Positions 41,669-63,462 of a DNA stretch of 64,000 bases are shown in pieces. The DNA lies in NCBI GenBank assembly GCA_951802425.1, contig OX637794.1, positions 4,030,001-4,094,000 of the forward strand, written 5' to 3'. The first letter of the stretch is position 1. Every line of letters begins with the position of its first letter. The stretch comes from Clavaria fumosa (lineage: Eukaryota; Basidiomycota; Agaricomycetes; Agaricales; Clavariaceae). The notes beneath the pieces were generated by a model. It was given only the letters and a program-made list of their open reading frames with translations. It did not search any database and was not told where the DNA came from. A program made the translations under genes and the position numbers.

Positions 41669-41689
41669 CAACCCATTCAGTCAAAATCC

Positions 41690-43190
41690 CCCAATAGACA
41701 TGGGATACCGGATGGTGAATATCCTCCAGTTCACTTGCACCAGCAGAGTCCGGCGGAAGTATCCAATTTGAACATATGTAATGGGTCCGGCGGAGAGTAT
41801 CCTTTACCCAACAGCCATTGGTCTGGTGGACATGGTATAGAATATTCTCTGCCTAATAACCATGGGTCCGGCGGTTGGCAAGAATATTCTTTGCCTAATA
41901 ACCATTGTTCCGACGGACATGGTATAGAATATTCTCTGCTCAATAGCCATTGGTCCGGTGGTGGGTGGAAATATTCTTTGCCCGATAGCCATCGGTCCGG
42001 CGGACATAGTATAGAATATTCTCTGCCTAATAACCATGGGTCCAGCAGCGGGCAAGAATATTCCTTGCCCAATAGCCATCGGTCCGGCGGACATAGTATA
42101 GAATATTCCTTGCCCAATAGCCATCAGTCCGGCGGACATAGTATAGAATATTCTCTGCCTAATAATCATGGGTCCGGCGGTTGGCAAGAATATTCTTTGC
42201 CTAATAACCACTGGTCCAACGGACATGGTATAGAATATTCTCTGCTCAATAGCCATTGGTCCGGTGGTGGGTGGGAATATTCTTTGCCCGATAGCCATCG
42301 GTCCGGCGGACATAGTATAGAATATTCTCTGCCTAATAACCATCGGTCCGGCGGACATAGTATAGAATATTCTCTGCCTAATAACCATGGGTCCGGCAGT
42401 TGGCAAGAATATTCTTTGCCCAATAACCATTGGTCCGATGGACATGGTATAGAATATTCTCTGCTTGATAGCCATTGGTCCGGCGGTGGGTGGGAATATT
42501 CTTTGCCCGATAGCCATCAGTCCAGCAGACATAGTATAAAATATTCTCTGCCCAATAACCATGGGTCTGGTGGTGGGCAAGAATATTCCTTGCCTGATAG
42601 CCACTGGTCCGGCAGTGGGCAAGAATATTCCTTGCCTGATAGCCACTGGTCCGGCGGTGGGCAAGAATATTCCTTGCCCGATAGCCACTGGTCTGGCGGA
42701 CATAATATAGAATATTCTCTGCCTAATAATCATGGGTCCGGTGGTGGGCAAGAATATTCCTTGCCCAATAGCCATCGGTCCAGCGGACATAGTATAGAAT
42801 ATTCTCTGCCTAATAACCATGGGTCTGGTGGTTGGCAAGAATATTCTTTGCCCAATAACCATTGGTCCGACAGACATGGTATAGAATATTCTCTGCTTAA
42901 TAGCCATTGGTCCGGCAGTGGGTGGGAATATTCTTTGCCCAATAGCCACCGGTCCGGCGGACATAGTATAGAATATTCTCTGCCTAATAACCATGGGTCT
43001 GGCGGTGGGCAAGAATATTCTTTGCACAATAGCCATTGGTCCGACAGACATGGTATAGAATATTCTATGCCCAATAGACATTGGCATGGAATATTCAGAT
43101 ATTTATTACAGCAATGGGCAAGAATATTCTATGCCCAATAGACATTGGCATGGAATATTTGGATATTTATTACTGTTGTCATACCAGACA
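41690..43190 (+). repeat. Left GAATATTC satellite, 42-45 bp units
   Basis: About 30 units of 42 or 45 bp with GAATATTCTCTGCC...TCCGGCGGACATAGTATA. All unit lengths are multiples of three, so long frames stay open on both strands; these are not taken as genes. The unit core (CCGGCGGAC-ATAGTATA-GAATATTC) resembles the reverse complement of the right-hand array, so the two arrays are inverted relative to each other. Confidence 0.92.
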
Positions 43191-43339
43191 TTGAATATCC
43201 TCCCTATTGCTTTCGGACTTTCCTATGCTTCCCTGCTGGAGGTCCTATCTTTACCACTCCTGTCTCCTTCCTTTTTCTCTCCCGCATTTGTCTCCTTCTA
43301 AATCAATGTGAGTTCTTGCTCACTCAGGGAATATTTCAC

Positions 43340-46170
43340 TTACAGAACTTGGGCCAATGGAATGAGCTTGAATATATCAGCCACTTCTCTCACCATTTGG
43401 CTCCAAGCAGCCCGTTCTTCCTCTTCCAGACTCAATCCCCATACCTTCATCCCCATGACAAGGAGAACAATTCCTGTCAAACCACCCCCACACCATTCCT
43501 TTTTGACCAAGATGTCAGCATCTTGCTCATCACCTTCAGGCCGGATCCTCCCCCACCATTCAGCGACCTCTAGGCCAATTGAGGGATAGTCGATATCCTT
43601 GTAATTTCTTGCTAACTGAGTATGGCTCCACCTGATGAGGGAAGGAGGAACAGGGACTCCACGGTTCTCCAGTGCCAATGGTGGTCCTCCAGCTGTCGCC
43701 AAGGCAGATTCAGCTTCAATCCAAGTCTCACATAAGGCTCTCCAGTCTGCTCCCAGCTTCTCTGAATCCTCAAATCCCAAACCAACCTCATTCGATAACC
43801 TCTGCATCATATTTGGCAGGAGACTGGTCATGTAAGTCTTAGCAGATGCTGGCTTAGCTGGCTTGGACTTTCGATAATGCCTTAAAATAATTGAGACATG
43901 AGCATGGTGGAAGAAATTGATGCAACAGGCTCACCTCTCAATTACTGCAGCCAGACAATCTGCTGTTGCAGTCAAGACATCCCATGCAGCAATGTCAATG
44001 TCCTGCGAGTATGATGGAAGCTTTCCAGAGAGGTCTTCAGGTTCTGTAAAGAGTACGAAGTGCACATCTCTCAGTGCTAAACCCAGTCCAAGCAGAAGTT
44101 CCTCCACATGAGCATGGGACTTTGGTGGATTTTCAGACTCAAAAAGGCCTTTCAAGGAACTAGCAAAGCGATACAGGTTGTCAGGGTGTTCGCTCTTGGC
44201 ATAAAATGTCTTGGGGAGCACTGGCTTGTCGAATGTCCAATGGCACCAGGAAGCAGTGATTATATAATCCAGGGAAATGCGTGGCTATGAGAGTGTGGAT
44301 AAGGGCTTGATTCGTGAACAAAATGGGGGACATACCACATAGTCCAAGAGTTTGAGAGCACGAGTATATCCTTCATATGTGGAGAGCTTCAACAAATATG
44401 CGAGTCAGTCTTCAGCAGCAGCAGGCGAGCCTTCAGCCGGAGCAGGAGAGCCTTCAGCAGGAGCGGGAGAGCCTTCAGCAGGAGTGGGAGAGCCTTCAGC
44501 AGGAGTGGGAGAGACTTCAGCAGGAGCAGGCGAGCTTGATGAATCCATCCCCTCGCCTATACGCTTTTCTTTCCCCTTATTTTTCTCTCTCTCCTCGCCT
44601 ATCTGCCTTTCTTTTCCCTTATTTTTCTCTCTGTTTGGTACAGCGCTCCCCTCCCTATGACTCTCGTCATCATAATCAGACTCATCTGGTGTCACCCATC
44701 CAATTTGAGGATTCCTCGAAGCCTTGTCTGCATGCCAGCCATGCTTTATGAATCGAAGCGGAATTTCTCCATGATTCTGGCAATCCAACCAGTAATCATA
44801 TACACCTTCAGCATCCAACTTTGTCATATAGGATGGATCCTTGAGTACACCAGCAGCGGGTATTCCTCGCTCAATAAACTCATGTGGGTTTGCCACCAAT
44901 TTGGCCCATGGAACAGACGAAGTGCGGCAATCAAGCCCTTCAAAATAATGTAAGTCAAATAATAATTATGGCAGGAGAAGTGTTCATACTGTGAACAGCC
45001 TTCACAAATTCACGAATCAACTGCTTGAGGTCAGGCAGTGAGGCACCCTGTGGCCGTTCAGGTAGTACAGGGTAGTCGTTGTCAAATGTAAGTGTTGCCC
45101 ATGCCTTCTTCTCATCGTTATCATCTCTGTCATTTTCTTTTGCCAGAAATGAGAGCATGATCTAAAGGACACAATTGTTGCACTAACCAGCTGCAAAGGA
45201 TGCCCCATACTGACACCAATTCTCCCATATATTGCCTTTTTTCCAGTCTTTGTATTCAGACGTAAATCGGCGATCATTATCCTTTGTTTCGAACCTGGGA
45301 ATCCAAAGTTACTAAAGACACATGGTGCGCTGCAATTGCTCTCTCACTTTGAGCAAACAGCTTCATCCTCCTCATTCAGGTACAACGTGAACATGACAAG
45401 CTGGATGCCCATTTTGCGGTGCATGTCATTTATAAAGGAATTTACAGCTCCAAACAAATCTTTTTCTGCTTTCCTAGTGTTACATTAGTATGAAGATATA
45501 TTTGTGATAGTAGTTGAACGTACTCGATCTGCAATTCCCTTGGCCATGAGCCAGTATTCCATTTATTGGCTTGTCCAGCACAATTTTCTCGGTCAGCCTC
45601 ACTAAGACCTTCCAAGACCTTTGTAAGTGCAGGCTGATATGCTGCAAAGGGGGTGAGACCCTCCCCAATAAGCCGCTCCTGTTCCTGCTGAACTCTGTCT
45701 TTGTACAACTGCCCAATAACGGTCCTTTTGTTCCATTTCTTCCCCCACACCTACATCAGCCTCATTCTCTCCTTCATCAACCCCTCCATTTGCTTGGTCC
45801 AATCCCTTGGCATCTCGAGGATCTGATTGCTGTTTGATGGGGTTTCCCTTGGACCGAGTATTTTTGAACCAGTTTTGGACAGCCTATGGATTGCAAAGTC
45901 AGCATGGTCAAACTCTGATAAGATGGGATATACTTTATTGAGGTCTGCTGGCAATGGCGGGACTGCCTTGCCTTTTACCACAAGTTTGCTATATGCTTGC
46001 TGCAGGCGCCTTGCAGTTTTATCTACTCTATCCAGCCTCTCCTTCCCCTTTGTCTGAAGCCATTTATCATATCCATGGGATAAAATAGGTTGATAGACGT
46101 CTAGTACCCAGACCATTTTTTTTGAGTGCAGCTCTTGTCGAGGAAGGTTGAGGAGAAGTTGAACAATCAC
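43340..46170 (-). CDS. Unknown multi-exon gene with homeodomain-like motif (KDZ cargo)
   Basis: Successive minus-strand coding blocks: 46170 to about 45940, about 45887-45760, 45750 to about 45500, 45158-44955, 44899-44405, 44221-43931, 43831-43340. The N-terminus is helical (RLDRVDKTARRLQQAYSKL) and, after an intron, AVQNWFKNTRSKG resembles a homeodomain recognition helix. The intron and motif sit in the same place as in the JmjC gene at 32.6 kb, so the N-terminal domains are probably homologous. Later there is a Trp-rich segment (WGKKWNKRTVIGQLYK), a low-complexity run of PAPAEGS-type repeats (44,405-44,530) with basic KGKER patches, and a charged C-terminus. No enzyme motif is seen. Exon borders are approximate and function is unknown. 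Confidence 0.55.
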
Positions 46171-46376
46171 GTGCCAGGATTCTTACACGACGTGTCATGT
46201 AAAGTCATGTGATTATACACATCCTGGAAACAAGTTTATTGTCTCTCACATGCTGCAAGTTTGTATTCTGACATTGGCTTTCATATATTAATTACTTATA
46301 TAATTTATGTTCTCATTATGCATGCAATTGTGTGAGCTTGGCACGCTTTGCTAAGATTATGTAAGCCATCTTTCTA

Positions 46377-46515
46377 AACTAAGCAAGGGACCTGACACGT
46401 CAGGTCACATGATCGTGAGTGTGGGAAGGGACCTGACGCGTCAGATCACATGATCGTGAGTGTGGGAAGGGACCTGACGTGTCAGATCACATGATCGTGA
46501 GTGTGGGAACCCATG
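46377..46515. repeat. Three tandem copies of a 45-bp motif with palindromic cores
   Basis: GGGACCTGACRYGTCAGRTC followed by ACATGATCGTGAGTGTGGGAA occurs three times. The CCTGACGCGTCAG core is palindromic. Similar CATGTGATCATGAG motifs stand upstream of gene A near 23,255 and 23,315. These could be binding sites. Confidence 0.7.
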
Positions 46516-46659
46516 TTGAAGTTCAAAAACATGGAGTACCCTTTCCCCTCTACCACAATGACTGCCCTCATTATCTTTGCACTCCCCTGTCCACACGAAA
46601 GGGGGCTGAAGGAAGGAAAGGGCTGGATGCATACAGCCTTTTCCCTCCTCCAGCCCCCC

Positions 46660-47160
46660 TAGCGACTCAACGCCTTGACGCTGCGGTGTGTCAGGGCGTG
46701 TGGCCCTCGGTGGCCTCTCGACTCAACACCCTGATGCCACAGTGCGTCGGGGTGTATGGCCCTCAGTGGCCTTTCTCTTGTTTGGCTTTCTCTCGTTGAC
46801 ACTGCGGTGCGTTAGGCGACACGGCCCTCGGTGGCTTTCTCTTGTTGATGCTGTGGTGCATTAAGCGACACGGCCCTTGGTGGCTTTCTCTCGTTGACAC
46901 TGCGGTGCGTTAAGCGACATGGCCCTTGGTGGCTTTCTCTCATTGACGCTGCGGTGCGTTAAGCGACACAGCCCTTGGTGGCTTTCTCTCGTTGACGCTG
47001 TGGTGCGTTAAGCGACATGGCCCTCAGTGGCCTTTCTCTTGTTGACGCTGCGGTGCGTTAGGCGACACGGCCCTCGGTGGCTTTCTCAACACAACTTGGC
47101 TCTGCGGTGAGTCAGGGTGTGTGGCTCTCGGTGGCCTTCCTCACCAACTTGGTTGGTTCC
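46660..47160. repeat. Tandem repeat, about 49 bp, upstream of MARTKQ gene B
   Basis: At least six regular units of TTGACGCTGCGGTGCGTTAAG...GGCCCTTGGTGGCTTTCTC (repeat starts about every 49 bp from 46,800), preceded by longer diverged units. It is related to the 94-bp array upstream of gene A. Confidence 0.85.
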
Positions 47161-47453
47161 TACTACCCTTGGGTAGTGACACTCACAAGGTATGCACATC
47201 TCACCCTCCTCTCACTTACTGATTTTTGGACCAGCCCGATTCTATGCTTACTACCCATGCGGTCGGCCATTGAGATGGAGAGATTAGGACAAGGTAAGTG
47301 TACCACTTCAACATCCCCTTTTTACTTAAGCAATTTCAGGTGACTTTGCGATGTGCGACCCCAACACTCAACCACAGGTGTTGGCACCAACTACCAGTTT
47401 CTGCGTTTTCTCATCTTTTGTAGTTGTAGACATCATATTCATGTAAGGTTCAT

Positions 47454-47501
47454 GTGGTGGGGTGCTCCCAATGAGGGCCCGCATTGGGGGTTCCACACCA
47501 C
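47454..47501 (+). promoter_or_regulatory. Conserved hairpin upstream of MARTKQ gene B
   Basis: Outer arms GTGGTG (47454-47459) and CACCAC (47496-47501), inner arms CCCAA and TTGGG, loop TGAGGGCCCGCA. The core GGGTGC-CCCAATGAGGGCCC is shared with gene A, while the outer stem differs in sequence but still pairs. It lies 185 bp before the ATG, in the promoter or 5' UTR. Confidence 0.6.
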
Positions 47502-47686
47502 TGAGCTGCGTAGTTAGGATTTTTTGTTGAGTGAAAAAAAATGTCAATGAATTGCACTTCGTCTTTAAACTGACATCTATGCTGTGCGTTGTTTACCGCA
47601 TTCCGCATGATCTTTTAAGTCACGTGACGTGTTCGGCCAACACTTTGAGTCGTGACGCCTTGTCTGCCTTGTCCATTCACACAATC

Positions 47687-49380
47687 ATGGCTAGGACTAA
47701 GCAATCTGCTAAGAGGTCATCTCGTGCTCCTGCTATGAGAGCCACCCTGCCTAAGGACTATCCCAAGTCTGCTGATCCTGCACCAGCATGCAAGGATCCT
47801 GCTCTCGTTCTGGTAAGCACTGGTGTGTCTGTCCATTCTGATCGTGTTGATCAGGAGATCAGCCTACAGTTCATCCTGCAGACCCAGAGGCAAATGATGA
47901 GGTGAATGGACCCCCTTTGGATTTGCCATTGGATCTGACCTGACTGCCCCATAGTGGTGTTCTGGGTGTGGGAATGGCGGGCTATCTCTAAATTGCGATT
48001 ACTGTCCACGAACGATGTGTGACAGGTGCTTGAGTATCCCAGGGGGGCAGCACCTGGTTGCCCAGGCAAACACAAAGTTCATGTGTGTGAGTTGCCATAT
48101 CAGGTCTGACACTCGGAACGAGCCCTATCATGTATGGTTTTATTTTCATACCTTGTGCGGTAGGAACTAAAATTTTGAGCTCTTAGCCCCTTCACCATGA
48201 TGATCAACCCATCCCACAACTGTTTGGGTTAGTCAAGCCTGCCACACTCCGAGGACACTATGCACGCCAAAACACTGACTCAATCGCCCTTGTCAATATT
48301 CGCCTCAGCTCCATCACTGAAAGGGGTGATCCTTTCAAGTCTGTGGCGAACATGCTGAGTGGGTGGTACACCCCAGAATCAGAGGGAAAGGAATTCCTCG
48401 AATTAGAAGTCAAGCTGGATGCTATTCCATCGGACATCAAGTCGTTGCAGAAGCACCAGTCGATCTTGGCGAAATTTGTAAAACATATTCAACAGTAAGT
48501 CTTATTTTTTATTTATAAGTCAATTTCTGATGTTTATTACTATTCTCTTATTCAGAAAGAGAGTTACGTGTCTCCTTGTCTTTTTATACACGCATACCGA
48601 CCCAGACAGTGGCGATCCCCACTGCACCCCAGGCACAGCCCTTGAAATCGGAGTGGTAAGTCTTTCTTCACATGATTTTTGATATTAGTGATCTGGATAC
48701 ATTCATTTTTAGTTTCTAGAAGCGATTCTTGGGCCAGATCTCACATCGTTTGCCAAGGGTGCGCACTCGATGCTCATTATGGAGGTATGTGGGAGTATGT
48801 GGGAGACGGATGCGTCCCTCTTCGCAATGCAAAAGTTTGCAAAGGCGTAAGTGGCTTATTTTGAGTTTCTGCCTACTTTCTCACAACCAGCAGTCAGTAT
48901 TTCAACCACATCATCGGGTTTGGTCAACCGAACTTTTATCCACACTTGGCAACCTCATTTTTGCTGAAACTTGTCATCAAGAATTTCGTCGAGTGTTTTT
49001 CCATCATTCGAATTCTCCCCAAACTTTTGAAAGAGGAAGAGGGCCTCGGTGCCCATACATCAGTCAAGGTATTTTTACCATTCATTGGCCTCGAGTATGT
49101 TTGGTGGCACAAGAATCTCCGTCCGCTCGGGGACCTGATTTGGCCACAGTGCCCAGTCTGTCATGCTGTTCGTACACTGACAATTGGCACTGAGATGGCA
49201 AAGCCCGGTTTTTATTCTGTCTCTTGTTCATGTGGCTGGAAAGGGCAGAAAGCAGGCAAGAGTGGCTTGGAGATTACGAGTGGAGGAATTGCGGGCTGGG
49301 GGAAGCGCCTCCTGTACGGGACTCCTGCCAGCTTCTTGACCATCTGGAAGGCCTCCCAAGATTTTTACTACATGTTCTAG
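47687..49380 (+). CDS. MARTKQ (H3-tail-mimic) zinc-finger protein, gene B, seven exons, intact
   Basis: Exons 47687-47812, 47863-47901, 47955-48131, 48187-48494, 48556-48655, 48713-48846, 48894-49380; 456 aa with no stop. Residues 1-14 (MARTKQSAKRSSRA) mimic the histone H3 tail: ARTKQ is identical, A7 and S10 are kept, and Arg-Lys at 8-9 is swapped. Met-Ala ends are normally trimmed, which would expose ARTKQ. Residues 56-105 form a PHD/ADD-like zinc finger (CSGCGNGG...CDYC...CDRC...CVSCH). A middle domain has LYTHTDP (H230) and EVCGS (C276), spaced like the His-Cys pair of caspase/CHAT peptidases (inference). A C-terminal ribbon has C381xxC384 and C406xC408. It is followed 330 bp later by the KDZ transposase on the same strand. 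Function unknown. Confidence 0.75.
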
Positions 49381-49710
49381 GAATTTCTTGCCTTGTACAA
49401 ATAATTTCTACATTGTGAAATCATACTTCTGCTTCATGAATCATTTTTTCTGTCATGTGAACTGTTGTAGTTCAATCATGCATTCGACAGCAGTGACCAA
49501 GTTTTTCACATGTTATGTATGAAAAACTATGATCATTTTATATTTATCTACACTGTTGCTCAGAGTAACAACAAGCTGTTGAGACTTCATGACACAATGT
49601 GAATCTAGTGGCGAGCTTCAGGACAAAGGCTGCATGTGATGAGGCTTCGTTGGTCACGTTCCTGTCTCACCTCATGTGATCATGTGACTTTGTTTAATGT
49701 GAAACCAACC

Positions 49711-52700
49711 ATGCGTGCAGTCATTCGCAAGAAAGGAGCAACACGAGCCATAGAGAGGGTTTTTGAGGTTAAGGAGAGGACAAGGGGCAGGAAGGTGGTA
49801 GGGAGAGATCAGCCAGTATTCCAAGAAAGGAGGGCTGTATCTCAATCACCATCAAAGAAACAAGGCAGAGAGATAAGTCCTGAAGCCTTGGCTTCAATGA
49901 CTTTGGAATTTGAGACACCAAAAAGTCCTACTCCCAAACGTTTGCGGAAGGGAAAGGTGTGCAAACCAAACACACTGTATGACCATATGTCTTACTCAAA
50001 ATTATTTAGACTCAAAATGACTTCCTGCGAGAGTGGAAAGAGGATGTGTGCAGTCTTCACCTCTCTGCAATAGTTGGACTTGAGGCTCTCCCACATGACT
50101 CTAGTTGTGTGGTTTGTGGTGGACCATTAGCCTTATTTCGTTGTCTTGACTGTTGCCAGGGCCAACAAGTTCTTTGTCACAACTGTTGCCTGGTACAACA
50201 TCAACATCTTCCTTTCCATCGTATACGGAGATGGACAGGGAAGTTCTTTGAAAGAGAGGACCTGGGAAATTTAGGACTCCTTATTCACCTTGGACATGAT
50301 GGGAAACCTTGCCCAACACTCTTTGCCAGTTCTGTTCACACCCCTGGGGATGACATCTGGGAGGATGATCTTGTTCAAGAGGGAGAATCAGAAGGGGACA
50401 TACAACCAGATGTTGAGGATGGTGCATTTCAGAGGGGAAAAAGCATGGTGTTTGTGACTACCTCAGGAATCTACAAGCGTCAAGTGCAATGGTGTAATTG
50501 TGAAGATGCCCTACCAGCACACATGCAGCTGCTTTGTATGCGATTTTTCCCATCTACCCTCAAGAGGCCCTCCACAGCGTTTACCTTCAATGTCCTTGAT
50601 CAGTTTCATATTGAAACTTTGGAGTGCCACACATCAGCTCGTAATTTCTACACCAAGCTGCAGAGAATAACATACAACAGGCTTCCTTCACTTGTTCCAG
50701 TATGTATATCACACATGGAAAGTCTCTTTGAAAAATTATTGATTATCTTTTTCCAGGATCGTTACCGAGAACTCATGAGGGTATCAAGGGAGTGGAGGTA
50801 CCTCAAGTCCTTGAAGCGGACAGGCATTGCACATAACCCCAACCAGATGCAAAAACCTGGAGATTTGGCACTCTTTTGTCCCAGTTATCCTCAACCTGGA
50901 ATAAATGTCTCAGAGCATGAAGTCAAACATGCAGAAGACCTGTAAGTAATTTCACATCTTGTGAAGATGTTCAGAGTAACAGGAGCATATAGATCCATCT
51001 ATGAACCATCAATTGTTGCAGATGGCAATTTCAAACTGGAAAATGTTGTAACTAAGAAGCCAGAGGAGGATGTCTATCTCAGTGATGGACGAGGTTATAT
51101 GGTTGAAGATGCAGTATATCAGGAACATATTAAGGCATCTATTGAGATAAAACAGGTCCAAATTTCCTGCATTATTTCCTCTATAGTTATTGACAATTCA
51201 CTTTCAGAAGTCTAAATGTCACAACCACCGTGCAATAACCCAAGCAAATGGACACAGTGGATTGCAAAGAAACCATTTACGTGCTACTGGAGTGGCTGCA
51301 TCTGCATGTGGACGCCATGGCTGTTTCTATCCTCATAGTGTAGTGGATCTCCAAAAAGGAGAGAGGTGTGTGGGGAATGCCATTGAATTCTGTTCTCCCA
51401 ATTGACATTGCCAAAGACAGATGAACATTGACTATTCTTTCTGTCAGGCTCTTAAGCAAGTCTTACTTGCCAAGAGAGTCATTTTTGTATATGATGTTGG
51501 ATGTGAGTGGCACATCAATTTTCAGCAGCGAGTTGATGCCAGTGGGCACTTGTATGTGCGGGAGGATCTTGAAGTGATAACTGCAGTTGGAAAATTCCAC
51601 TTAGGTGCTCACATCCAAAAATGTTTTGCACAGTTCTCTTTGAACTTTGTGCAAGGTGTGGGGCAGTTGGATGGGGAAGTATTGGAAAGCCTTTGGTCAT
51701 CACTTAATAAGGCAGCAAGCCATACAAGGGGCATGTCTCAACCACATCGGCAGGAGATACTGGACAGCTACATGCAGGATTCCAATTGGAAGAAAATGTC
51801 TAGAGCATGTAAGCAAATCCCCATATTCTCACATGTGTCTTTGCTGATGACTTGGCACAGCACAATCTATTGTCACCAAGTTAAAAAAAGCAATGACTGA
51901 AAGAGAGGACAAGAAGTTAGCCCTGGATGAGTTGACGAAACGGCTTGAACCAACATGGGTATTAGAATGGAAGGACCTAGAGGAGAAGGCAATGACTCAA
52001 TGGGGAGATGCTCTTTCAGTGTATGATGTCACAAATGTGAAAGGCCAGTACTTGGAAAACATATCTATAGTTGCTATATTGCCTGGCTAATGGCATACAC
52101 TTTTACACAGAACCAGGTTGTGCTGAGGTTCTACTGGAGCTTTCTCAAAAACATCGTGCTGCTGGAAATCTATCTGGCATATCTAATCTCTTGGCTCTAG
52201 GATTGAGCATAGAAGCCACTCAGTGAGTCATATTGCAAAGTTCCATTGCCTGTCATTCACAACAAAATAGGGCGTCTTTGGTTGCCTATACACAGTCTTT
52301 GAGGCAACCCTCACTCTCTGATAAAAAGGAGTTGGAGGAAAAGCGAAGGCGCCTCCAGATTGAGATCAGCAAATATGAGAAGAAATGGGCCACTTTATCT
52401 CTCTTTGAAGAAGCCATTGAACTGCAGGCAAACCATTCATCTCAGCTCGATGAAGAAGTCAGTGTCGATGTTGCTGCTTCTGATGATGAGGAAGATGTAG
52501 TAGTACAGCCCGAGGCTGTGACACTATTTCTGCCCTCTAATTTGTCCAAAGAAGTTCGGCAATTACATAACTTGGATGAGATGGGGAACTGGGAGGCAAA
52601 GCTTCGCATAGGGCAGATGAATGATGCTTTACGGCAGCTCAGGATTGCTTTGGGTGAGAAGTCTATGATATATAGGGCAAATGTAAGTTTTAGCTCTGCT

Positions 52701-53325
52701 GTCATTGACGATCTAACTGCCATTAGGTCCGAAATGCTCGCAGCCAGAAAACTTCAACACGAGCATGGAGCCAGGTGAAGCAGATGGAGTCAAGAGTCCA
52801 GCAGGCAGTACAAGATTACACGCGGGCTAAGTCTGCTTTATGCAGATTGGGTGTTACAGAGCCAACATTCAATGACATCACCAAGGAAGACTTGAAGATG
52901 CCAGGTGATATCATAGAAGAAAATAGGTTTGGACAGCAATCAGACAAACTACCATGGTTTTGGAGATTGGATGTCAATGTGGAAGGAGAGCAGAGTGAGC
53001 AAATGAAGGAATGTAAGTGACAAATCATTAATATGCATGAAATGTCTGGCAACTTTGATTAGTCTACAGAGTCAACTGGTTGAGAGCAAGTGCACGATTT
53101 CAGAGATGGGATGAGGAAGTCAACTTGCTAAAACATGAGATGCAATGGACAGTAGCCTTCTTCAGGCATAGGAAAGAGGAGTGGATGAGACTGGGAGAGA
53201 TGGAAGAGGGAAAGAGTGGTTTGACATGCTACGCATTCAGGCAGGCAAATGTATGGGAGCAATTTGAGCAAGAAGCAGAGGATTTATGTGATAAGGCAAC
53301 CACTATGGTTAGTGGAGGAGGCTAG
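49711..53325 (+). CDS. KDZ-family transposase with CxC2-type cysteine cluster, eleven exons
   Basis: Exons 49711-49956, 50010-50699, 50757-50941, 50993-51155, 51208-51365, 51417-51808, 51861-52043, 52111-52222, 52271-52682, 52727-53012, 53063-53325: exactly 1,030 codons with stop. One intron (52044-52110) appears to use a GC donor; the others are GT-AG. The N-terminus is basic (residues 1-82). A cysteine cluster CVVCGGPLALFRCLDCC...CHNCC spans about 115-142. The RNase H-like core follows: VADGNF, the YD pair at 506-507 (VYDVGCEWH), HLGAH at 542-546 and GEVLE at 568-571. C-terminal coiled-coil (EEKRRRLQIEI) and RSQKTSTRAW match the family. It would cut and paste the surrounding 22-kb element. 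It is apparently intact in a strongly decayed neighbourhood. Confidence 0.88.
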
Positions 53326-53379
53326 ATTTTCTCATACCTGTTCAGTCTAGCAGATCAAGGGTGAATGAATTTGCTCAGG

Positions 53380-55688
53380 ATTATTCTGGCATTGTCTGGC
53401 ATGCTTAATGGCTCATGAAAGTTCTGGAGCCATGCCTAATGGCTGATGAATATTCTGCCATTGTCTGGCGGAGCTGGGCGAGATGGCTAACAAATATTCT
53501 GGTATAGTCTGGTGGAGCCATGTTTAATGGCTGATGAATATTCTGGCAATGTCCGGCGGAGCTATGCCAAATGGTGGCTGAATATTCTAGCATAGTCCGG
53601 CGGAGCTATGCTCAATGGTTGATGAATATTCTTGCAATGTTCGGCGGAGCTATGCCAAATGGTGGCTGAATATTCTAGCATAGTCCGGCGGAGCTAGTTG
53701 TAATGGCTAACAAATATTCTGGCAATGTACGGTGGAGCTATGCCAAATGGTGGCTGAATATTCTAGCATAGTCTGGCAGAGCTGGTCATAATGGCTAACA
53801 AATATTCTAGCATAGTCCGGCGGGGCTATGCCAAATGGTGGCTGAATATTCTAGCATAGTCCGGCAGAGCTAGTCATAATGGCTAACAAATATTCTGGCA
53901 ATGTACAGTGGAGCTATGCCAAATGGTGGCTGAATATTCTAGCATAGTCTGGCGGAGCTGGTCATAATGGCTAACAAATATTCTAGCATAGTCCGGCGGG
54001 GCTATGCCAAATGGTGGCAGAATATTCTAGCATAGTCCGGCAGAGCTATGCTCAATGGTTGATGAATATTCTCGCAATGTTCGGCGGAGCTATGCCGAAT
54101 AGTTGCAGAATATTCTAGCATAGTCCAGCAGAGCTAGTCATAATGGCTAAGAAATATTCTGGCAATGTACGGCAGAGCTATGCCAAATGGTGGCTGAATA
54201 TTCTAGCATAGTCCAGTGGAGCTGGTTGTAATGGCTAACAAATATTCTAGCATAGTCCAGTGGGGCTATGCCAAATGGTGGCAGAATATTCTAGCATAGT
54301 CCGGCAGAGCTATGCTCAATGGTTGATGGATATTCTCGCAATGTTCGGCAGAGCTATGCCAAATGGTGGCTGAATATTCTGGCATAGTCCAGCGGAGCTG
54401 GTTGTAATGGCTAACAAATATTCTGGCAATGTCCGGCAGAGCTATGCCAAATGGTGGCTGAATATTCTAGCATAGTCCGGCAGAGCTATGCTCAATGGTT
54501 GATGGATATTCTCGCAATGTTCGGCGGAGCTATGCCAAATGGTGGCTGAATATTCTAGCATAGTCCAGCGGAGCTAGTCGTAATGGCTAACAAATATTCT
54601 GGCAATGTACGGCGGAGCTATGCCAAATGGTGGCTGAATATTCTAGCATAGTCCGGTGGAGCTATGCTCAATGGTTGATGAATATTCTCGCAATGTTCGG
54701 CGGAGCTATGCCAAATGGTGGCTGAATATTCTAGCATAGTCCGGCGGAGCTAGTCATAATGGCTAACAAATATTCTGGCAATGTACGGTGGAGCTATGCC
54801 AAATGGTGGCTGAATATTCTAGCATAGTCTGGCGGAGCTGGTCATAATGGCTAACAAATATTCTAGCATAGTCTGGCGGGGCTATGCCAAATGGTGGCAG
54901 AATATTCTAGCATAGTCCGGCAGAGCTATGCTCAATGGTTGATGAATATTCTCGCAATGTTCGGCGGAGCTATGCCGAATAGTTGCAGAATATGCTAGCA
55001 TAGTCCAGCAGAGCTAGTCATAATGGCTAAGAAATATTCTGGCAATGTACGGCGGAGCTATGCCAAATGGTGGCTGAATATTCTAGCATAGTCCGGCGGA
55101 GCTGGTTGTAATGGCTAACAAATATTCTAGCATAGTCCAGTGGGGCTATGCCAAATGGTGGCAGAATATTCAAGCATAGTCCGGCAGAGCTATGCTCAAT
55201 GGTTGATGGATATTCTCGCAATGTTCGGCAGAGCTATGCCAAATGGTGGCTGAATATTCTGGCATAGTCCAGCAGAGCTGGTTGTAATGGCTAACAAATA
55301 TTCTGGCAATGTCCGGCAGAGCTATGCCAAATGGTGGCTGAATATTCTAGCATAGTCCGGCGGAGCTGGTCATAATGGCTAACAAATATTCTAGCATAGT
55401 CCGGCGGGGCTATGCTCAATGGTTGATGAATATTCTCGCAATGTTCGGTGGAGCTATTCCAAATGGTGGCTGAATATTCTAGCATAGTCCGGCGGAGCTG
55501 GTTGTAATGGCTAACAAATATTCTGGCAATGTCCGGCGGAGCCATGCTAAATGGTGGTTGAATATTCTGGCATGGTCTGGCGGAGCTATGCCTAATGGTT
55601 GATGAATATTCTCGCATTGTTCGGCAGAGCTTGTTGTGATGGCTAATGAATATTTTTGCATTGTCTGGTGGAGCTGAGCCCATGCATA
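53380..55688 (-). repeat. Right GAATATTC satellite, about 44-bp units with an 880-bp higher-order repeat
   Basis: About 50 units such as GAATATTCTAGCATAGTCC + GGCGGAGCTATGCC. A distinctive unit (TATGCCGAATAGTTGCAG) occurs at 54091 and 54971, with matching flanks, giving a roughly 880-bp higher-order period (20 units), evidence of recent segmental duplication. The array is inverted relative to the left one. Some minus-strand frames are open by repeat structure only. Confidence 0.92.
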
Positions 55689-55689
55689 T

Positions 55690-56415
55690 TGTCACGCCCG
55701 TGCCAACCGGAGTATTCTCCGGCCTTCTCCGGCCTTCTCCGGCGGTCTCCGGGCTCTCGGACCTATGTCCAGAGCGCCGGACTTCACTTGCGCGACGTAG
55801 CGCAGGATCAGGAAGTGTGCCTGAAGGGCCACCAACTGATGTCCGCACTAGTTGCTGTTGCCTCGGGCAACCAGGAACTGGTCCTGCCCCGGACCCGTCG
55901 CCCGGACAATTTGATGGACTCCCGGAAACGCCTGTACATCATAGTTAGTAGTTTAACCTTTGTCCCGATCAGATTCTGTCTCTGTCTCGTAGTCCCGTAG
56001 TTTAGTTTATTTCCTGACTCCTGGACATTACTCCGTAGCTACAAACTGATTCCGTAGTCGTACCGGAGTTATCTCCGTTGCTAGCATCGCCCCGGACTTT
56101 TGTATAAGTACTCGTAGATTACGGCCTTGTCCAGCCAGTCTGATTATCAACCCCGCCTACTCGCACTCTACTCCGCATTGCCTGAAACCCATCTCCCGAC
56201 TTCTCCCGAAATCCGAGACACTGATCCGCAGAGGGCGTCGTTTCAATACGTTCGCCAAGTCTCGTCCGAACCCAAATCCAACTCCGTCCAAACTCCGGTT
56301 TGCTCCGCCGCACCCGGACCTTGTTACTCTCGCCCAGACTTTATTGTTCCCCACCGGACTTTGTTATTTCCGCCCGGACTTTACTCCGCCCAACCCCCGC
56401 AACATAGACGTAACA
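55690..56415 (+). repeat. 5' LTR of element 5
   Basis: 726 bp from TGTCACGCCCGTGCC to GACGTAACA. TATAAGTA lies at 56102-56109, and CAGTCTGATTAT at 56136-56147 is complementary to the primer site. Tandem CCGGCCTTCT occurs near the start. Confidence 0.93.
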
Positions 56416-56417
56416 GT

Positions 56418-56429
56418 ATAATCAGACTG
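56418..56429 (+). other. Self-primer binding site of element 5
   Basis: ATAATCAGACTG, two bases after the LTR, is the exact reverse complement of CAGTCTGATTAT in the LTR, which lies about 30 bp after the TATA box where transcription should start. Confidence 0.72.
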
Positions 56430-56446
56430 ACCACTCTGCAATCATA

Positions 56447-57601
56447 ATGTCCGAACCTCCCCGACGCAGTGGCCGCTTGCGCCCAAGCGCCAAGCCGACG
56501 ACCCCTGGTGGGTCCGACCTCGGAAAACTAATCAACCCGACCCTTCCTGGCGAGGGGGATGAACCAACCGTACCCGCTCCACGCGAAACCCGATCCCGAT
56601 CTCCTCCGGCTGAACAGCCCGACTCCCCGTTATCCGAACCCGACCCCGAAGCCCCGAACCTCGCGGATGCGATCCGCGCCTTGGCCGCATCCACCAAGGA
56701 ACGAGGTTCCCCGTCTTCCCGCGTCAAGGAACCGGAACCGTTCAACAGTTCCAACTCCAAGAAACTCCGTAGTTTCTTGGTTCAATGCGAATTGAACTTC
56801 CGAGACCGCCCGAAGACTTTCAGCAAGGACTCGGTAAAGATAAATTTTGCCATCTCCTTCCTGCAGGGGACCGCTCTCGAGTGGTTCGAACCCGCTCTCC
56901 TAGGCGAAGCCCCGGATGCCGACTGGATTTCCGACTGGAATCTATACGTGCAGGAACTCCGGGATAACTTCGGACCACACAATCCCGTCGGAGATGCGGA
57001 GGCCGAACTCGACCGCCTCCACATGAAGGACTCCCAACAGATCACGACGTACAATGTCGAGTTTAACCGGATAGCTGCGTGGCTCCGGTGGGACGAAGCT
57101 GCGCTCCGGCACAACTATTACCGCAGACTCCCGAACCGCCTCAAGGACGAGATTTCCCGAGTCGGGAAACCGACTTCCCTTCCTGTCTTGCGCAAACTCT
57201 GCCAGGACATCGACGCGCGATACTGGGAACGTCAAGGCGAACGTTCCCGCGATGCACCCGCCAAATCCGACAACAAGCCCCGCCAAGCAAATAACTCCGG
57301 ACAATCATCCGCAGGAAACAAACCCGCCAACAACTCCGGAGCAGCATCAAACGCCTCCGGATCCGCACGAAAGACCGATCCCCCGAAGGATAATAAGATC
57401 GGCAAAGATGGAAAGCTAACTCCTGAGGAACGGAAACGCCGCTTCGACAACAACCTCTGCCTCGTTTGCGGAGGAACCGGACATGTTGCGAAGGACTGCC
57501 CGAAGTCCCGGAACACGCAGGGCAAGAAAGCCCGAACCGTCACGACCTCCAACACAGTTCCGGAGGTTAAGGCTGTGGCTGCTCGGGCAAAAAACTCCTG
57601 A
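56447..57601 (+). CDS. Gag of element 5
   Basis: 384 aa from MSEPPRRSGRLR. N-terminal third is proline- and charge-rich and disordered; the capsid-like Retrotrans_gag region follows (FLQGTALEWFEPAL, residues about 145-160); a linker rich in Asn, Gly and Ser; then a CCHC zinc knuckle CLVCGGTGHVAKDC near 338-351 that binds RNA. No stop is present, so Gag should be made. Its last codons contain the slippery site into pol. Confidence 0.92.
   Translation: MSEPPRRSGRLRPSAKPTTPGGSDLGKLINPTLPGEGDEPTVPAPRETRSRSPPAEQPDSPLSEPDPEAPNLADAIRALAASTKERGSPSSRVKEPEPFNSSNSKKLRSFLVQCELNFRDRPKTFSKDSVKINFAISFLQGTALEWFEPALLGEAPDADWISDWNLYVQELRDNFGPHNPVGDAEAELDRLHMKDSQQITTYNVEFNRIAAWLRWDEAALRHNYYRRLPNRLKDEISRVGKPTSLPVLRKLCQDIDARYWERQGERSRDAPAKSDNKPRQANNSGQSSAGNKPANNSGAASNASGSARKTDPPKDNKIGKDGKLTPEERKRRFDNNLCLVCGGTGHVAKDCPKSRNTQGKKARTVTTSNTVPEVKAVAARAKNS
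57589..57595 (+). promoter_or_regulatory. Programmed -1 ribosomal frameshift site (A AAA AAC)
   Basis: In the Gag frame the codons are GCA AAA AAC TCC TGA, giving a canonical X XXY YYZ heptamer four codon-positions before the Gag stop (57599-57601). The pol frame is -1 relative to gag and is open across this point (AAA CTC CTG AGC). I did not work out a downstream stem-loop. Confidence 0.8.
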
Positions 57602-60600
57602 GCGGCCCTTCGAAGTCCGCACTACCGGAGGACCATGCTGCCCCAGCCAGTGCACGTTACGAGTTTCGCCTCGGCGCATCTGCCATTTCCCCATCGTCTG
57701 ACTCCTTGTACATAACTCTGTCTGCTCCGAATATAGATCGTTCTCCGTATTTCCGGACCCTGGTTGATTCCGGGTCGTCGCATTGTTTCATAAGTCCCGA
57801 GTTCGTCAAGAAACACAAACTTCGGACAACTCTGATTTCCCCCATGTCACTCCGCCTTTTCGATGGCTCCTCTACGGACATCGTCAAATCCACACTCACT
57901 CTCCCTGTCCAATTCCCTACCAGAGAACTTTTCGATATCGAATTCCTGGTAGCCCGAATGGATCCCGCCTGCTCCACTGTCCTCGGATATAACTGGCTCA
58001 CCCGCTACAACCCGTTGGTTGACTGGGTTAGAGGCAGTATCGAATTCCGGACATTGAAGTATTCCCGAACATCAAGTCCGACCTCCGACACCCAAACCCC
58101 GACTCCGAAAGTGGGAACTACCATCCTCACTTCCCCTCCGAAATCACCACCACGGCACCCGGAGATTCGTTTCGTCAATGCGGTTGAATTCTCCAAGATC
58201 TCCGAGTCAAAGGGATCTCGGACTTTCATGCTGCACCACTTCAGTGACGAAACATCCGTCCGCTCCGTCGCGACCGAACCGGTGGACCTGTCCTCCATCC
58301 CAGAGGAATATCACGACTTCGCTGATGTGTTCAGCAAGACGAAAGCGGACACCCTAGCTCCGCATCGACCGTACGACCTCCGGATTAATCTGGAAGAAGG
58401 TAAAACTCCGCCCCATGGGCCGATATATTCCCTCTCCCAGACGGAGCTCCGTACACTGCGGGATTTCCTCGATGAACATCTCTGCATCGGATTTATCCGC
58501 CCGACTAGCTCTTCCCATGGAGCTCCTGTTTTATTCGTCCGGAAAAAGGATGGAAGTCTCTGGCTATGCGTGGACTTCCGAGCCCTTAACTGGATCACCT
58601 GGAAAGACCGATATCCGATCCCTCTGACCCGCGATCTGCTGGACGTAGCCGGAAGTGCTAAGGTTTACACCAAAATCGATCTCCGGCACGCCTACCATCT
58701 GGTCCGGATCGCGGAAGGCGATGAATGGAAAACCGCCTTCCGGACCCGGTATGGTTCGTTCGAATGGTGCGTTATGCCCTTCGGACTTACTAACGCCCCT
58801 GCGGCATTCCAACACTTCATAAACGATGTGTTTTCCGACCTCCTGGACAAGTTTATGATCGTCTACCTGGACGACATCCTGGTATACTCCGACAACCTGG
58901 AGTCGCATGTACAGCATGTCCGAGAAGTATTCCGGCGCCTACGCGCCAACGGACTTTTCGCTCACACAGGAAAATGCTTCTTCCATACTGAACGAGTTGA
59001 GTACCTAGGTTTCCTGCTCTCTCCGGAAGGACTCACAATGGACCCGGCGAAGGTGAAAGCCATTACAGAATGGCCGGAGCCCCGGAAAGTGAAGGACGTG
59101 CAGTCCTTCCTCGGATTCACCAACTTCTACCGGAGATTCGTCTTCCGGTACTCCGACATCGTAGTCCCCCTTACTCGACTCACGTGGAAGTCCTCCATCT
59201 GGAACTTCAATCCTGACTGCCGGGAAGCCTTCGTCACCCTGAAGACGGCTTTTACCTCGGCCCCGATACTGGCGAACTTCGTCCCCGACATCCCTATAAT
59301 TGTGGAAACAGACGCTTCGGAATACGCAGTCGCTGCGATACTCTCCGTGGAATCGCCACCCGGAGAAATTCATCTGGTCGCTTTTCACTCCCGGACGCTC
59401 CACGACACGGAGTTGAACTACGACACCCACGATAAGGAACTCCTGGCCATATTCGAGGCATTCGGTGAGTGGCGTCACTACCTCGAAAGTTCTGCTATTC
59501 CAGTCCACGTCATCACGGACCATAAAAACCTGGGATACTTCGGAACTACCCGGACTTTGTCTCGGAGACAAGCCCGGTGGTCGGAATTCCTCTCCGGTTT
59601 CAATATGGTTATCCGATTCCGCCCCGGAAAACTAGGAACAAAACCCGACACCCTCACCCGACGATGGGATGTTTACCCCAAAGAGGGAGATAGTGGCTAC
59701 GCCAGCGTAAATCCGCAAAACCTCTGACTGATTTTCAACTCCGAACAGCTGGCCACCTCCCTCCGAGCAACTTCCCTCGAAGGACTTGTACTCCGATCCG
59801 TCCTTGTCATGGACGAGGAAAAACTCCGAACCGACATCCGGAACTCGCTCCGCGATGATCCGGTCGCAAGCACACACCTGGACAAAGTCCTCTCTGGCAC
59901 CGGAGATAATCCCCGGTGGACTGTAGATGCGTCCGGCTTCCTGCGACTGGACGACCGGATATATGTTCCGGACTCCAACAACCTCCGACTCTGTGTCCTA
60001 CTGTATAGGCACGACCACCCAATTTCCGGACACTTTGGACAAAATAAGACTCTGGATTTGATCCGAAGGGAGTATACGTGGCCTGGACTTCGCAGTTTTG
60101 TCTCGGGGTATTGCAACTCCTGTACTAACTGCGGCAGATCGAAGACCCGAAGGCACCGGCCTTACGGTCTCCTCCACCAACTCCCGGTCCCGGAATTACC
60201 ATGGACTTTATCGAACACCTCCCGCAATCCGACGGATTTAATTCCATCCTTGTCATCATTGACCACTTTTCCAAGCAAGGAATCTTTACTCCGACCTACG
60301 ACACGGTTACATCGACGGACCTCGCTGGACTTTTCATCCAGCATGTTTTCTCCAAGCACGGGGTTCCCTCGCACGTAACCTCCGATCGCGGACCGGAATT
60401 TGTTTCTCACTTTTTCCGCTCCCTCGGAAAAGCCCTCGACATGACTCTCCATTTCACGTCCGGACATCACCCGGAAGCAGATGGTCAAACCGAACGGTTA
60501 AATCAGACACTGGAGCAGTATCTCCGGTCTTACTGCAATTATCAGCAAGATGATTGGTCCGAGCTCCTCCCGCTCGTGGAATTCGCGTACAACAACGCTC

Positions 60601-61280
60601 CGAGCAAGATGACCGGAATTTCGCCATTCTTCGCTAACAAGGGTTACCATCCGAACATCTCCGTCCGAGTTGACCAGGACATGACTTCCTCCCGTGCCCA
60701 GACTTATGTTGCTGACCTGGAAACACTCCACCAGGTACTCCGGCAACAAATCCTTGCCGCGCAGCAGTGGTACCAAAAGTCCGCTGACCGGCATCGCATT
60801 CCGGCCCCGGATTTCCGCGTCGGAAACAAAGTTTTCGTCAAGGCGGAATTCTTCCAGACCACCCGACCATCCAAAAAGCTAAGCGAGAAAATGCTCGGAC
60901 CTTACGAGATCATTGCTCAAGCCGGACGAAGCTCCTTTACTCTCCGACTCCCGGAAACTCTCCACTCTGTACATCCGGTATTCCACGTTTCAATGCTGGA
61001 ATTGGCGACAGCCAACACAATTCCGAACCGGATCCAGCCCCCTCCGGAACCAGTAGTTGTCGATGGAGAACTGGAATTCGAGATCACGGAGATTTTGGAT
61101 TCCAAGTACGACAACCGGAGGAAGACTTGTAAGCTACTCTACTTGGTCCGGTGGACAGGTTACGAAGGAACCGACGAAGAAACTTCCTGGCTGCTCGCTA
61201 CGGAGCTTGAGCACACACCGGACCTCGTCGCGGACTTCCATTCCACGTACCCCGACAAACCCGGACCTCTCGGAGCTTAG
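57596..61280 (+). pseudogene. Pol of element 5 with one TGA and one frameshift
   Basis: Continues from the -1 slip. Protease DSGSSHCF near 57,760; RT with YLDD at about 58,864; RNase H with ETDASEYAV; integrase HHCC (HDHPISGHFG ... CTNCGRSK), core (MDFIEHLPQSDGF, TSDRGPEFVSHF, EADGQTERLNQ) and a C-terminal chromodomain-like segment (EITEILDSK...LYLVRWTGYEGTDEETSW). TGA at 59725-59727 probably replaces CGA. Near 60,200 the frame shifts by a deletion of 3n+1 bases between short CATGGA repeats, just at the start of the integrase core. The two lesions separate RT/RNase H, HHCC and core. Confidence 0.92.
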
Positions 61281-61399
61281 GCTTCACTCGGACTTAGTTC
61301 ACACGAAGTCCGATCAACGGAAATCCGATTTGCAAAAACACAAAAAAATATATACGAAATAATTTACACCGGACCTAAGTCCGGTTCCCCCTCCGCATC

Positions 61400-62502
61400 C
61401 TATGTCTCCATCTCCTGCTCCGCTCCTTCTCCCACCTCCGGCCGGACATCCATCAACGAAGAACGACGGGAGCGCGCGATCTCCTGCTCCACCGCCCGGG
61501 CCATCTCTGGATCTCGTCGCTCCAGCACCCTCCGCAGGATCCGGTTATCCTGCGCAAGCTGATCCCTCTCCGCGATAATGTTGAGGTGCTCGATGAAGTC
61601 CGGGACGAGCTGTCGGAGTTCAGTTCCGAACTCCGCAGGTGCCCCGGAAATGACTCACCTGCCCGATCGCTGCCTCCAGCCTCCTCGTCATCTTCTCCAG
61701 CCCCTTCACCATCGAGTTCCGGTGCATCCGGACTTCATGGCTCTTCTCCGCATTGGCCTGGAGGAACCAGTTCGTCGACTGGAGATCCAGCTCCGGCTCG
61801 AAATCCTTGGCCCGGAGCTTCTTCGCCGGCCTCGCCTCCACCTCCGGTCCAAGTCCGACTCCACCATGGCGTCGGACTTCGTCCCCCGATGCACGACCCG
61901 CTTTCCCTTGTCTTTTCCTTTTCCCTTGCCCTTCGCCTTCCCTGGCCACATGCACCCAACCCACTTCTCCCGGCACTTGTCACAACTCCGAGTTCTCGCC
62001 GGCCCCGTCCATTTGCATTCCTGGCCCGGACTTTAGCGCGAACTCCAGCGGAGACAGGAGAACCTACCAGTTTTTTCTGGGAGCAACGCTTGCACGTTAC
62101 TCCGGCCGAGGTCCCCTGGGCCTCCGCGATCTCCGCTGCGCGCTTCCTCCACGCCTCCTCCTCCTTTTGCTCCCGCACCCCTTTCTCCGCCGCCTCCTGG
62201 AGGGTTACTGACTCCTCCACACTGGCCACCAGCTTCATCGTGGCCCGCGCCGCCTCCAACTCCTTCCTCCGTTCCCGCGCTCTTTTCCCCGCCTCTTCCT
62301 CCTTCCTTCTCGTCTCCGCCTCCTCCTCCTTCCGTTTCCGCTCCGCTTCCTCCTCCCTCTGTTTCATCTCCGCCTCCTCCTCCTCTCGTCTCCTCCGCTC
62401 CGCCGCCTCCTTCTCCCTCCGCGCCTTGTTCGCCTGCAACACCTCCATCTCTGCCTGGAGTTTCTGGAGTTGGACTTCGTATTCGTTGTCTTCTTCAGCC
62501 AT
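61400..62502 (-). pseudogene. Antisense accessory gene of element 5 (coiled coil plus Cys cluster), frameshifted
   Basis: Between pol and the 3' LTR a minus-strand gene begins with MAEEDNEYEVQLQKLQAEME and continues as a long Glu/Arg-rich coiled coil (REEEAERKRKEEEAETRRK). It then shows paired cysteines (VTCKRCSQKK and, in a shifted frame, SCDKCREKWVGC), a basic KGKGKGK stretch, a part with KKLRAKDFEPELDLQ, and a helical C-terminus (PDFIEHLNIIAERDQLAQDN) ending with TAG at 61402-61400. At least two small frameshifts break it. The Cys-x2-Cys pattern resembles fungal zinc-cluster DNA-binding domains, but I cannot name it. Antisense orientation relative to gag-pol is unusual. Confidence 0.6.
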
Positions 62503-62699
62503 GCCTGGTGGTGGTTCAGGTCTAAGGAGAGGGGACCGGTGGTGGATTGATGCCCCGGATTATATACCCGGTCACGGATTTCGAACTCCGACGAATCTCC
62601 GATCCCATTTCCGTCCTCGGATCGCGATCACCTTGATCCGAACGCCCCAATCCGGTCCAGGGGTGGTAACGGATCTAGGGCCTCGAGGGCTCGGCCCTG

Positions 62700-62711
62700 A
62701 GAGGGAGATAC
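62700..62711 (+). other. Polypurine tract of element 5
   Basis: GAGAGGGAGATAC directly precedes the 3' LTR at 62712 and is the likely plus-strand primer. Confidence 0.65.
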
Positions 62712-63457
62712 TGTCACGCCCGTGCCAACCGGAGTATTCTCCGGCCTTCTCCGGCCTTCTCCGGCGGTCTCCGGACCCCCGATTGCAACTCCGGGCTCTC
62801 GGACCTATGTCCAGAGCGCCGGACTTCACTTGTGCGACGTAGCGCAGGATCAGGAAGTGTGCCTGAAGGGCCACCAACTGATGTCCGCACTAGTTGCTGT
62901 TGCCTCGGGCAACCAGGAACTGGTCCTGCCCCGGACCCGTCGCCCGGACAATTTGATGGACTCCCGGAAACGCCTGTACATCATAGTTAGTAGTTTAACC
63001 TTTGTCCCGATCAGATTCTGTCTCCGTCTCGTAGTCCCGTAGTTTAGTTTATTTCCTGACTCCCGGACATTACTCCGTAGCTACAAACTGATTCCGTAGT
63101 CGTACCAGAGTTATCTCTGTTGCTAGCATCGCCCCGGACTTTTGTATAAGTACTCGTAGATTACGGCCTTGTCTAGCCAGTCTGATTATCAACCCTGCCT
63201 ACTCGCACTCTACTCCACATTGCCTGAAACCCGTCTCCCGACTTCTCCCAAAATCTGAGACACTGATCCACAGAGGGCGTCGTTTCAATACGTTCGCCAA
63301 GTCTCGTCCAAACCCAAGTCCAACTCCGTCCAAACTCCAGTTTGCTCCGCTGCACCCGGACCTTGTTACTCTCGCCCGGACTTTATTGTTCCCCACTGGA
63401 CTTTGTTATTTCCGCCCGGACTTTACTCCGCCCGACCCCCGCGACATAGACGTAACA
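62712..63457 (+). repeat. 3' LTR of element 5
   Basis: 746 bp, same ends as the 5' LTR. It has 20 extra bases near 62,776 (ACCCCCGATTGCAACTCCGG region) absent from the 5' copy; most other differences are C/T or G/A. Confidence 0.93.
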
Positions 63458-63462
63458 CATAT

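Follow-up and report, generated by a model that had tools for sequence, protein, structure and literature searches.

Within a 64,000-nucleotide stretch of the Clavaria fumosa genome (the window), a gene was found that is cargo of a Kyakuja (KDZ) DNA transposon and whose predicted protein carries, in this order, a start resembling the histone H3 tail (MARTKQSAKRSS), a PHD/ADD-type zinc finger, a His/Cys region and a zinc ribbon. Histone mimics and transposon-borne breakers of silencing are already known; what is new is that one mobile gene combines the tail with a matching reader. The arrangement suggests that the transposon imitates chromatin and thereby escapes silencing. Feature coordinates are collected in Table 1; L numbers denote loci of this genome and P numbers proteins of other fungi.

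Table 1. Features of the window in the order of their first position
Feature	Position	Strand	Basis or remark
Second, diverged tail-mimic gene MARTKQNLKKTT...	24472..26127	+	End read by eye
TET/JBP dioxygenase open frame beside second member	27891..28421	-	Pfam Tet_JBP, E 2.2e-20
Left target-site duplication GATGCAA	41662..41668	.	Flank comparison
Kyakuja (KDZ) DNA transposon, 22,070 bp	41669..63738	+	Ends common with C8 copy; 7-bp duplication
Left subterminal tandem array, 87-bp units	41794..43159	.	Inverse to right array
Tail-mimic gene	47687..49380	+	7 exons, 457 aa plus stop
Exons of tail-mimic gene	47687-47812, 47863-47901, 47955-48131, 48187-48494, 48556-48655, 48713-48846, 48891-49380	+	Hand-spliced model
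Met plus 20-residue H3-tail mimic ARTKQSAKRSSRAPAMRATL	47687..47749	+	Translation, H3 comparison
Exon 3 with PHD/ADD-type zinc finger	47955..48131	+	Translation, profile matches
His230 codon	48593..48595	+	Read from sequence; invariant in aligned members
Cys276 codon	48788..48790	+	Read from sequence; invariant in aligned members
C-terminal CxxC/CxC zinc ribbon	49150..49233	+	Read from sequence
CxC2 and KDZ transposase domains	50046..51900	+	Pfam CxC2 E 5e-26, KDZ E 3.5e-31
Right subterminal tandem array, 88-bp units	53426..55675	.	Inverse to left array
Nested LTR retrotransposon, right end of element	55690..63458	+	LTRs 94.5% identical; reverse transcriptase and integrase domains
Right target-site duplication GATGCAA	63739..63745	.	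Flank comparison

Gene model and start codon

The seven-exon model begins at the ATG at 47687 and contains no internal stop, and the coordinates and residues given in the first-pass annotation proved correct when the frames were re-read and the spliced model was built. The window protein was spliced-aligned to the 20 copies in the genome, and the following counts cover the 19 others. Its six introns recur identically in seven of these (L011-L016, L018), with small shifts in five (L010, L017, L024, L026, L027), and with an extra gap modelled as an intron in two (L009, L022); the first two introns are merged in L023 and L025, and three copies are disrupted (L019, L020, L021). One or two stops are present in eight of the 19 models (L010, L013, L015, L019, L020, L025, L026, L027), some of them perhaps model faults.

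The start codon of the window gene has A at -3 and G at +4. An in-frame ATG lies 36 codons upstream of 47687 in the window copy, the upstream peptide being common to close copies only. Use of an upstream start is disfavoured by 14 of the 31 loci checked, in which no in-frame ATG precedes the gene before a stop is reached, and could still apply to window-like copies.

The Kyakuja element and its neighbourhood

The gene had been proposed to be transposon-borne, and it does lie inside an element with mapped ends and a GATGCAA duplication; the right end was set by comparison with the C4 and C8 copies and the left end with C8. The element ends are 5'-CA..TG-3' (CAACCC...GATGTG), and its length without the nested LTR retrotransposon is 14,301 bp, compared with 14,263 bp for the C8 copy, which is without that insertion and whose flanks agree at six of seven positions (by eye). 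According to section 3.2.1 of a 2025 paper (PMC12730594), Kyakuja elements have 7-bp duplications, CA..TG ends and no inverted repeats. At 41669-63738, a KDZ transposase with a CxC domain, CA..TG termini and a 7-bp duplication were found together. A Pfam-based search gave no TET/JBP match inside this element.

Three further observations concern the element and its left flank. Open frames upstream of the tail-mimic gene (43340-46170, minus strand) gave no Pfam match over the cut-off. A 49-bp tandem repeat (46783-47087) also precedes the gene and, to judge from alignments, may vary in copy number from one element copy to another. Left of the element, retrotransposon pieces are present at 34819-40104 (integrase, Ty3-like capsid, protease, reverse transcriptase).

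In the finger of the second, diverged member in the window (MARTKQNLKKTTSGH), a Tyr replaces the sixth ligand Cys of its relatives (NEYF for NECF). A TET/JBP frame stands beside it, and a TET-bearing Kyakuja element at about 24-31 kb of the window is suggested. A sister gene that has a related finger (L052 at C1:3255900-3257500, L053, L054, L055) precedes a number of tail-mimic copies at a distance of several kb; the start of the L052 type seems to be MASRSQKRRLP, which is neither ARTKQ nor H3-like.

Across the genome, the finger exon has 105 matches, TET/JBP has 64 (56 over the cut-off) and KDZ has 185, of which the 150 listed were used. Within 10 kb of one of these 150 KDZ matches lie at least 61 of the 105 fingers, 45 lie within the same distance of TET/JBP, and at least 76 are near one or the other. 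For this last count, again with the 150 KDZ matches listed, 200 random draws gave 7.6 on average and never more than 16; the 105 loci include near-identical copies and are therefore not independent. Counted the other way, 41 of the 64 TET/JBP matches have a finger within 10 kb.

The H3-like tail in this genome

As judged from the predicted N-terminus, the H3-like start of the window gene is no coincidence. After removal of Met, the tail equals H3 at 10 of residues 1-21, a number reached by 5 of 200,000 shuffles. The start pattern MxRTKQ has 51 matches in the 48.8-Mb genome and 0 when read backwards. For 46 of the 51, against an expected 0.02, the finger follows on the same strand after 172-268 nt. 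A finger also follows 17 of 18 MARNKQ patterns, all seven R4/H4 copies and all three T4/M4 copies. Among the five MxRTKQ matches left over, two lie at the histone H3 genes of the genome (C3, C8), one encodes Ser as second tail residue, and one (C2:229927) precedes a core match of the tail-mimic family. The fifth, a MARTKQ-coding start at C10:2242540 (plus strand), has neither a nearby finger match nor a match to H3, and could be another tail mimic.

Starting from the finger, an H3-like start at fixed spacing was found before 73 of the 105 loci, the other 32 having none by the patterns used. A set of 21 further finger loci (20 fetched, plus that at window position 24734) was inspected: MARTKQ, MPRTKQ, MARNKQ, MARTTQ or MARTMQ lies 172-262 nt upstream of the finger in 12, two have altered starts (L045 MPRMKQ, L048 MAQNKQ), and seven are without such a start, including L056, which resembles an ordinary PHD finger, and the L052 type with its different start. 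A protein search with exon 1 returned 20 copies, namely 13 with MARTKQ, six with MARTRQ and one with MVRTHQ. A chance match to H3 was rejected on the shuffles, the backward read, the linkage to the finger and the 73 of 105 starts.

Twenty tail rows were compared, with P0004 left out and two rows near-identical. Met is followed by Ala in 19 rows and by Pro in one, and by Val in copy L026; a small residue at this position (Ala, Pro, Val) permits Met removal. ARTKQ is intact in 14 of the 20 rows and ARK[S/T] in one. H3 positions 10, 12, 15, 17 and 20 are conserved in 16-18 rows and position 11 in 15; K9, K14, K18 and several other positions have drifted. Across the family position 4 varies, with R, H, T, M and Q among its residues. 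Since positions 13, 14, 16, 18 and 19 drift equally, the loss of K9 can be read as a special signal only hypothetically. A captured histone fold is unsupported: no histone family appeared in the Pfam scans, and the H3 matches of the family profile lie in its N-terminal stretch.

Relatives in other fungi and selection

A search with the window protein led to P0001 (partial) and P0002 of Earliella scabrosa (25% identity over 92%), and a search with P0002 to eleven proteins including itself, from Earliella, Dichomitus, Ganoderma, Polyporus and Pleurotus, at 24-46% identity to P0002. Nine of the eleven start with MARTKQ and have 14-16 H3 identities over residues 1-21; P0003 begins MAGTQQTARRS, and P0004 is without such a start. 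A third, alignment-based search added only P0013, a Suillus protein model with an internal MARTKQTACKATGG. The profile of ten relatives (P0011 left out) matches histone H3 in PDB with E 1.7e-8, the match spanning profile positions 1 to about 41 in most rows. The H3-tail start claimed in the first-pass annotation is thus a predicted N-terminus that is mostly retained in homologues (9/11 proteins, 73/105 loci), with P0003, P0004 and 32 of the 105 loci as exceptions.

A nine-member alignment (P0002, P0003, P0005, P0007, P0009, P0010, P0012, the window protein and L024; P0001, P0004, P0006, P0008 and P0011, partial or oddly modelled, left out) has 24 invariant columns. These include M1, A2, T4, Q6, A8, S11, A16 and L21 of the tail, five finger Cys, and His289 and Cys336 (P0002 numbering). 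A ten-row alignment keeps both His289 and Cys336 in every row, and the tail residues almost throughout. With twelve rows, two columns are invariant, neither of them His or Cys, because P0001 and P0011 are incomplete; Cys336 comes close to invariance here. The linker can hardly be aligned and differs greatly in length and sequence, while the tail and the finger on either side of it are kept. Only the first half of the finger pattern is left in P0012.

Among nine subfamily representatives, pS and pN are 0.77 and 0.24 for tail codons 2-12, and 0.70 and 0.39 for codons 13-21. Between the window copy and L022, dN/dS is 0.35 for the tail, 0.97 for the linker, 0.13 for the finger and 0.08 for the His-Cys core. 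In the comparisons with L023, L024 and L027, synonymous sites are near saturation and pN peaks in the linker each time; of the four pairs, that with L027 is the one in which the tail (dN/dS 0.27) does not fall below the linker (0.26). Because the segment has only 20 codons, the evidence for the tail leans more on its retention across subfamilies and genera.

The zinc finger

The finger ligands lie at residues 57-103 of the window protein. In a set of 13 chosen fingers, from which P0012 and other members were left out, seven Cys and a final His are invariant and the sixth position is Cys or His; this ligand order, with GG and C-D-x-C-P-R, is of the PHD/ADD type. The profile of these 13 matches CHD4 (3.8e-9), the ATRX ADD (2.5e-6) and PHF21A (5e-6) in PDB, more weakly AIRE and TRIM24/33/66 (1.7e-4 to 8.5e-4), and also weakly NSD3 and ZMYND11. 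The CHD4, ATRX, PHF21A, AIRE and TRIM fingers read H3 unmethylated at K4, whereas NSD3 and ZMYND11 are not known to us as K4me0 readers. Pfam PHD is matched by 11 of the 13 fingers (best E 3.7e-4); the window finger scores 9.8 bits, below the cut-off of 24. Acidic residues precede the first Cys in CHD4 (QDYC) and ATRX (DEQC) as in the family (NDEWC, HDDFC, NDEFC), P0009 having none at this place. The ligand order and the matches to CHD4, the ATRX ADD, PHF21A and AIRE support the PHD/ADD-like finger that had been proposed for the window protein.

Possible role of tail and finger

The reading that we tentatively prefer, and consider quite possible, is that of an anti-silencing cargo protein whose tail would compete for H3-tail pockets, that of its own finger first. 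Tail and finger may work together, in cis or between copies, because they stand in one chain and both are kept while the linker drifts; an anti-silencing role is suggested by the linkage with TET/JBP. In the mechanism that we infer, the tail mimic and a TET/JBP dioxygenase borne near related copies would form an anti-silencing kit. A Met aminopeptidase would expose ARTKQ..., and the free tail would then fit a PHD pocket for K4-unmethylated H3, that of its own finger first or that of a sister copy. The docked tail may keep the protein closed or oligomeric. On silent chromatin, genuine unmethylated H3 tails would displace the mimic, so that the protein would open on the nucleosomes of the transposon; the freed tail would occupy H3-tail binders of the host, and the His/Cys domain, possibly a peptidase, would do its work at this site. 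Several of the observations reported here speak against this reading: the variable position 4, the low Pfam PHD score of the window finger, the finger-profile matches to NSD3 and ZMYND11, the L027 pair, the start of the L052 type, the departures of P0003, P0004 and P0012, and the lack of a TET/JBP match inside this element.

A different, rather unlikely reading is that the tail is a decoy for host enzymes, filling the H3K4 demethylase cleft of an LSD1-type enzyme or some other protein that binds the H3 tail, which would preserve K4 methylation and activity at the element. PHD pockets mostly contact the first H3 residues, and this rival stays alive because the tail is conserved beyond residue 8, reaching H3 positions 10-12, 15, 17 and 20. 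One subfamily starts with MPRTKQ, and SNAG domains start with MPR. PMC5896174 describes SNAG as an H3-tail mimic in LSD1 and reports inhibition of LSD1 by a SNAG peptide. The genome has two SWIRM-domain matches, either of which might be LSD1. The decoy would, however, leave unexplained a finger in the same protein that is of the right class for the tail, and tails with R4, T4 or M4 exist.

The His/Cys core

An enzymatic role of the His/Cys domain is plausible because the pair is invariant: both His230 and Cys276 are found in all nine chosen members of the alignment, and 46 residues separate them in 19 of 19 copies of this genome that keep both, L020 having lost the Cys. This agrees with a reading, which we regard as unlikely, of the domain as a clan-CD (caspase/CHAT-like) cysteine peptidase for H3 tails, which the finger would recruit to chromatin and the protein's own tail would restrain as pseudosubstrate. 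The CHAT/caspase peptidases (PF12770, clan CD) have the same His-Cys order and a similar spacing (by eye), and a hydrophobic stretch precedes each of the two residues (by eye). In the best hhalign match to a CHAT profile of 39 sequences (36 of 37 bacterial loci plus three CHAT domains of this genome), the Cys falls on the CHAT Cys.

Against this stand the E value of that match (0.12), its score being equalled by 10 of 150 column-shuffled profiles, and the annotated P0001 and P0011, which are without the His part. A smaller CHAT set gave E 0.19, and the full-length alignment E 0.56 off the dyad. Searches of the core against Pfam and PDB gave no convincing family match, XIAP RING matches at E 0.4 being taken as chance. 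By hhalign, no significant match to caspase-3 was obtained, and the control of CHAT against caspase-3, which are true relatives, failed too, so this fold test has little power either way. Of the possible caspase-like His-Cys pair put forward in the first-pass annotation, the two residues are invariant in the nine aligned members and form a candidate dyad; the comparisons with PDB, Pfam, the CHAT sets and caspase-3 gave nothing significant for CHAT/caspase membership.

A further elaboration, which we regard as unlikely, would make the protein a self-reading chromatin sensor, in which the tail is held by its own reader, real H3 switches the protein by competition, and a clan-CD-like peptidase is gated in this way. 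If so, then together with TET/JBP both the histone and the DNA arm of Kyakuja silencing would be undone, and the loss of ARK[S/T] would leave a tail that is read as K4-type and is not markable for heterochromatin.

Discussion

That the H3-like start is a passive, functionless leftover of a captured histone 5' exon is very improbable: drift at K9, K14, K18 and other positions and the K4 changes of some subfamilies would fit it, but the tail is kept despite near-saturated synonymous sites and in proteins of several genera.

The anti-silencing reading has its nearest parallel in the TET/JBP dioxygenases (PF12851), which are likewise cargo of Kyakuja/KDZ elements and are read as anti-silencing (PMC12730594). 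In this genome they cluster with the tail-mimic genes; they are unrelated proteins, however, which act on DNA methylation and involve no histone mimicry. Among histone mimics, PAF15 and DPPA3 have an ART/VRT motif that is bound by the UHRF1 PHD finger in place of H3 (PMC11187062), and the SNAG domains of SNAI1 and GFI1 are, like the present tail, N-terminal mimics of the H3 tail, with LSD1 as target (PMC5896174). Unlike the tail mimic, PAF15 and DPPA3 are host proteins, and their motif shares three residues. The family finger resembles those of CHD4, ATRX, PHF21A and AIRE in its GG and CD-x-C pattern, and shares with ATRX a Cys where CHD4 has His. To our knowledge, PAF15 and DPPA3 have no finger of their own and are not mobile, SNAG domains are unlike ARTKQ in sequence and occur in proteins with no PHD finger, and CHD4, ATRX, PHF21A and AIRE carry no H3 tail of their own.

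The view that this layout belongs to no described family agrees with the results: the window protein matches no Pfam family over its cut-off, and no such family is named among the literature matches listed. An earlier mention is possible in the paper that first described KDZ elements (Iyer et al., PNAS 2014), which is outside these matches.

Among known transposon cargo are DNA dioxygenases with a possible role in undoing methylation; the tail-mimic protein, if the anti-silencing reading is true, would be the counterpart on the histone side, and selfish DNA would then attack both arms of silencing. With tail and matching reader in one chain, the family is a compact natural system in which the discrimination of H3 by PHD pockets can be tested. 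A ready-made mutant series is provided by the 73 finger loci of this one genome that have an H3-like start, with their K4, R4, T4, M4 and N3 variants. The family may also explain genes that are annotated merely as hypothetical in mushroom genomes.
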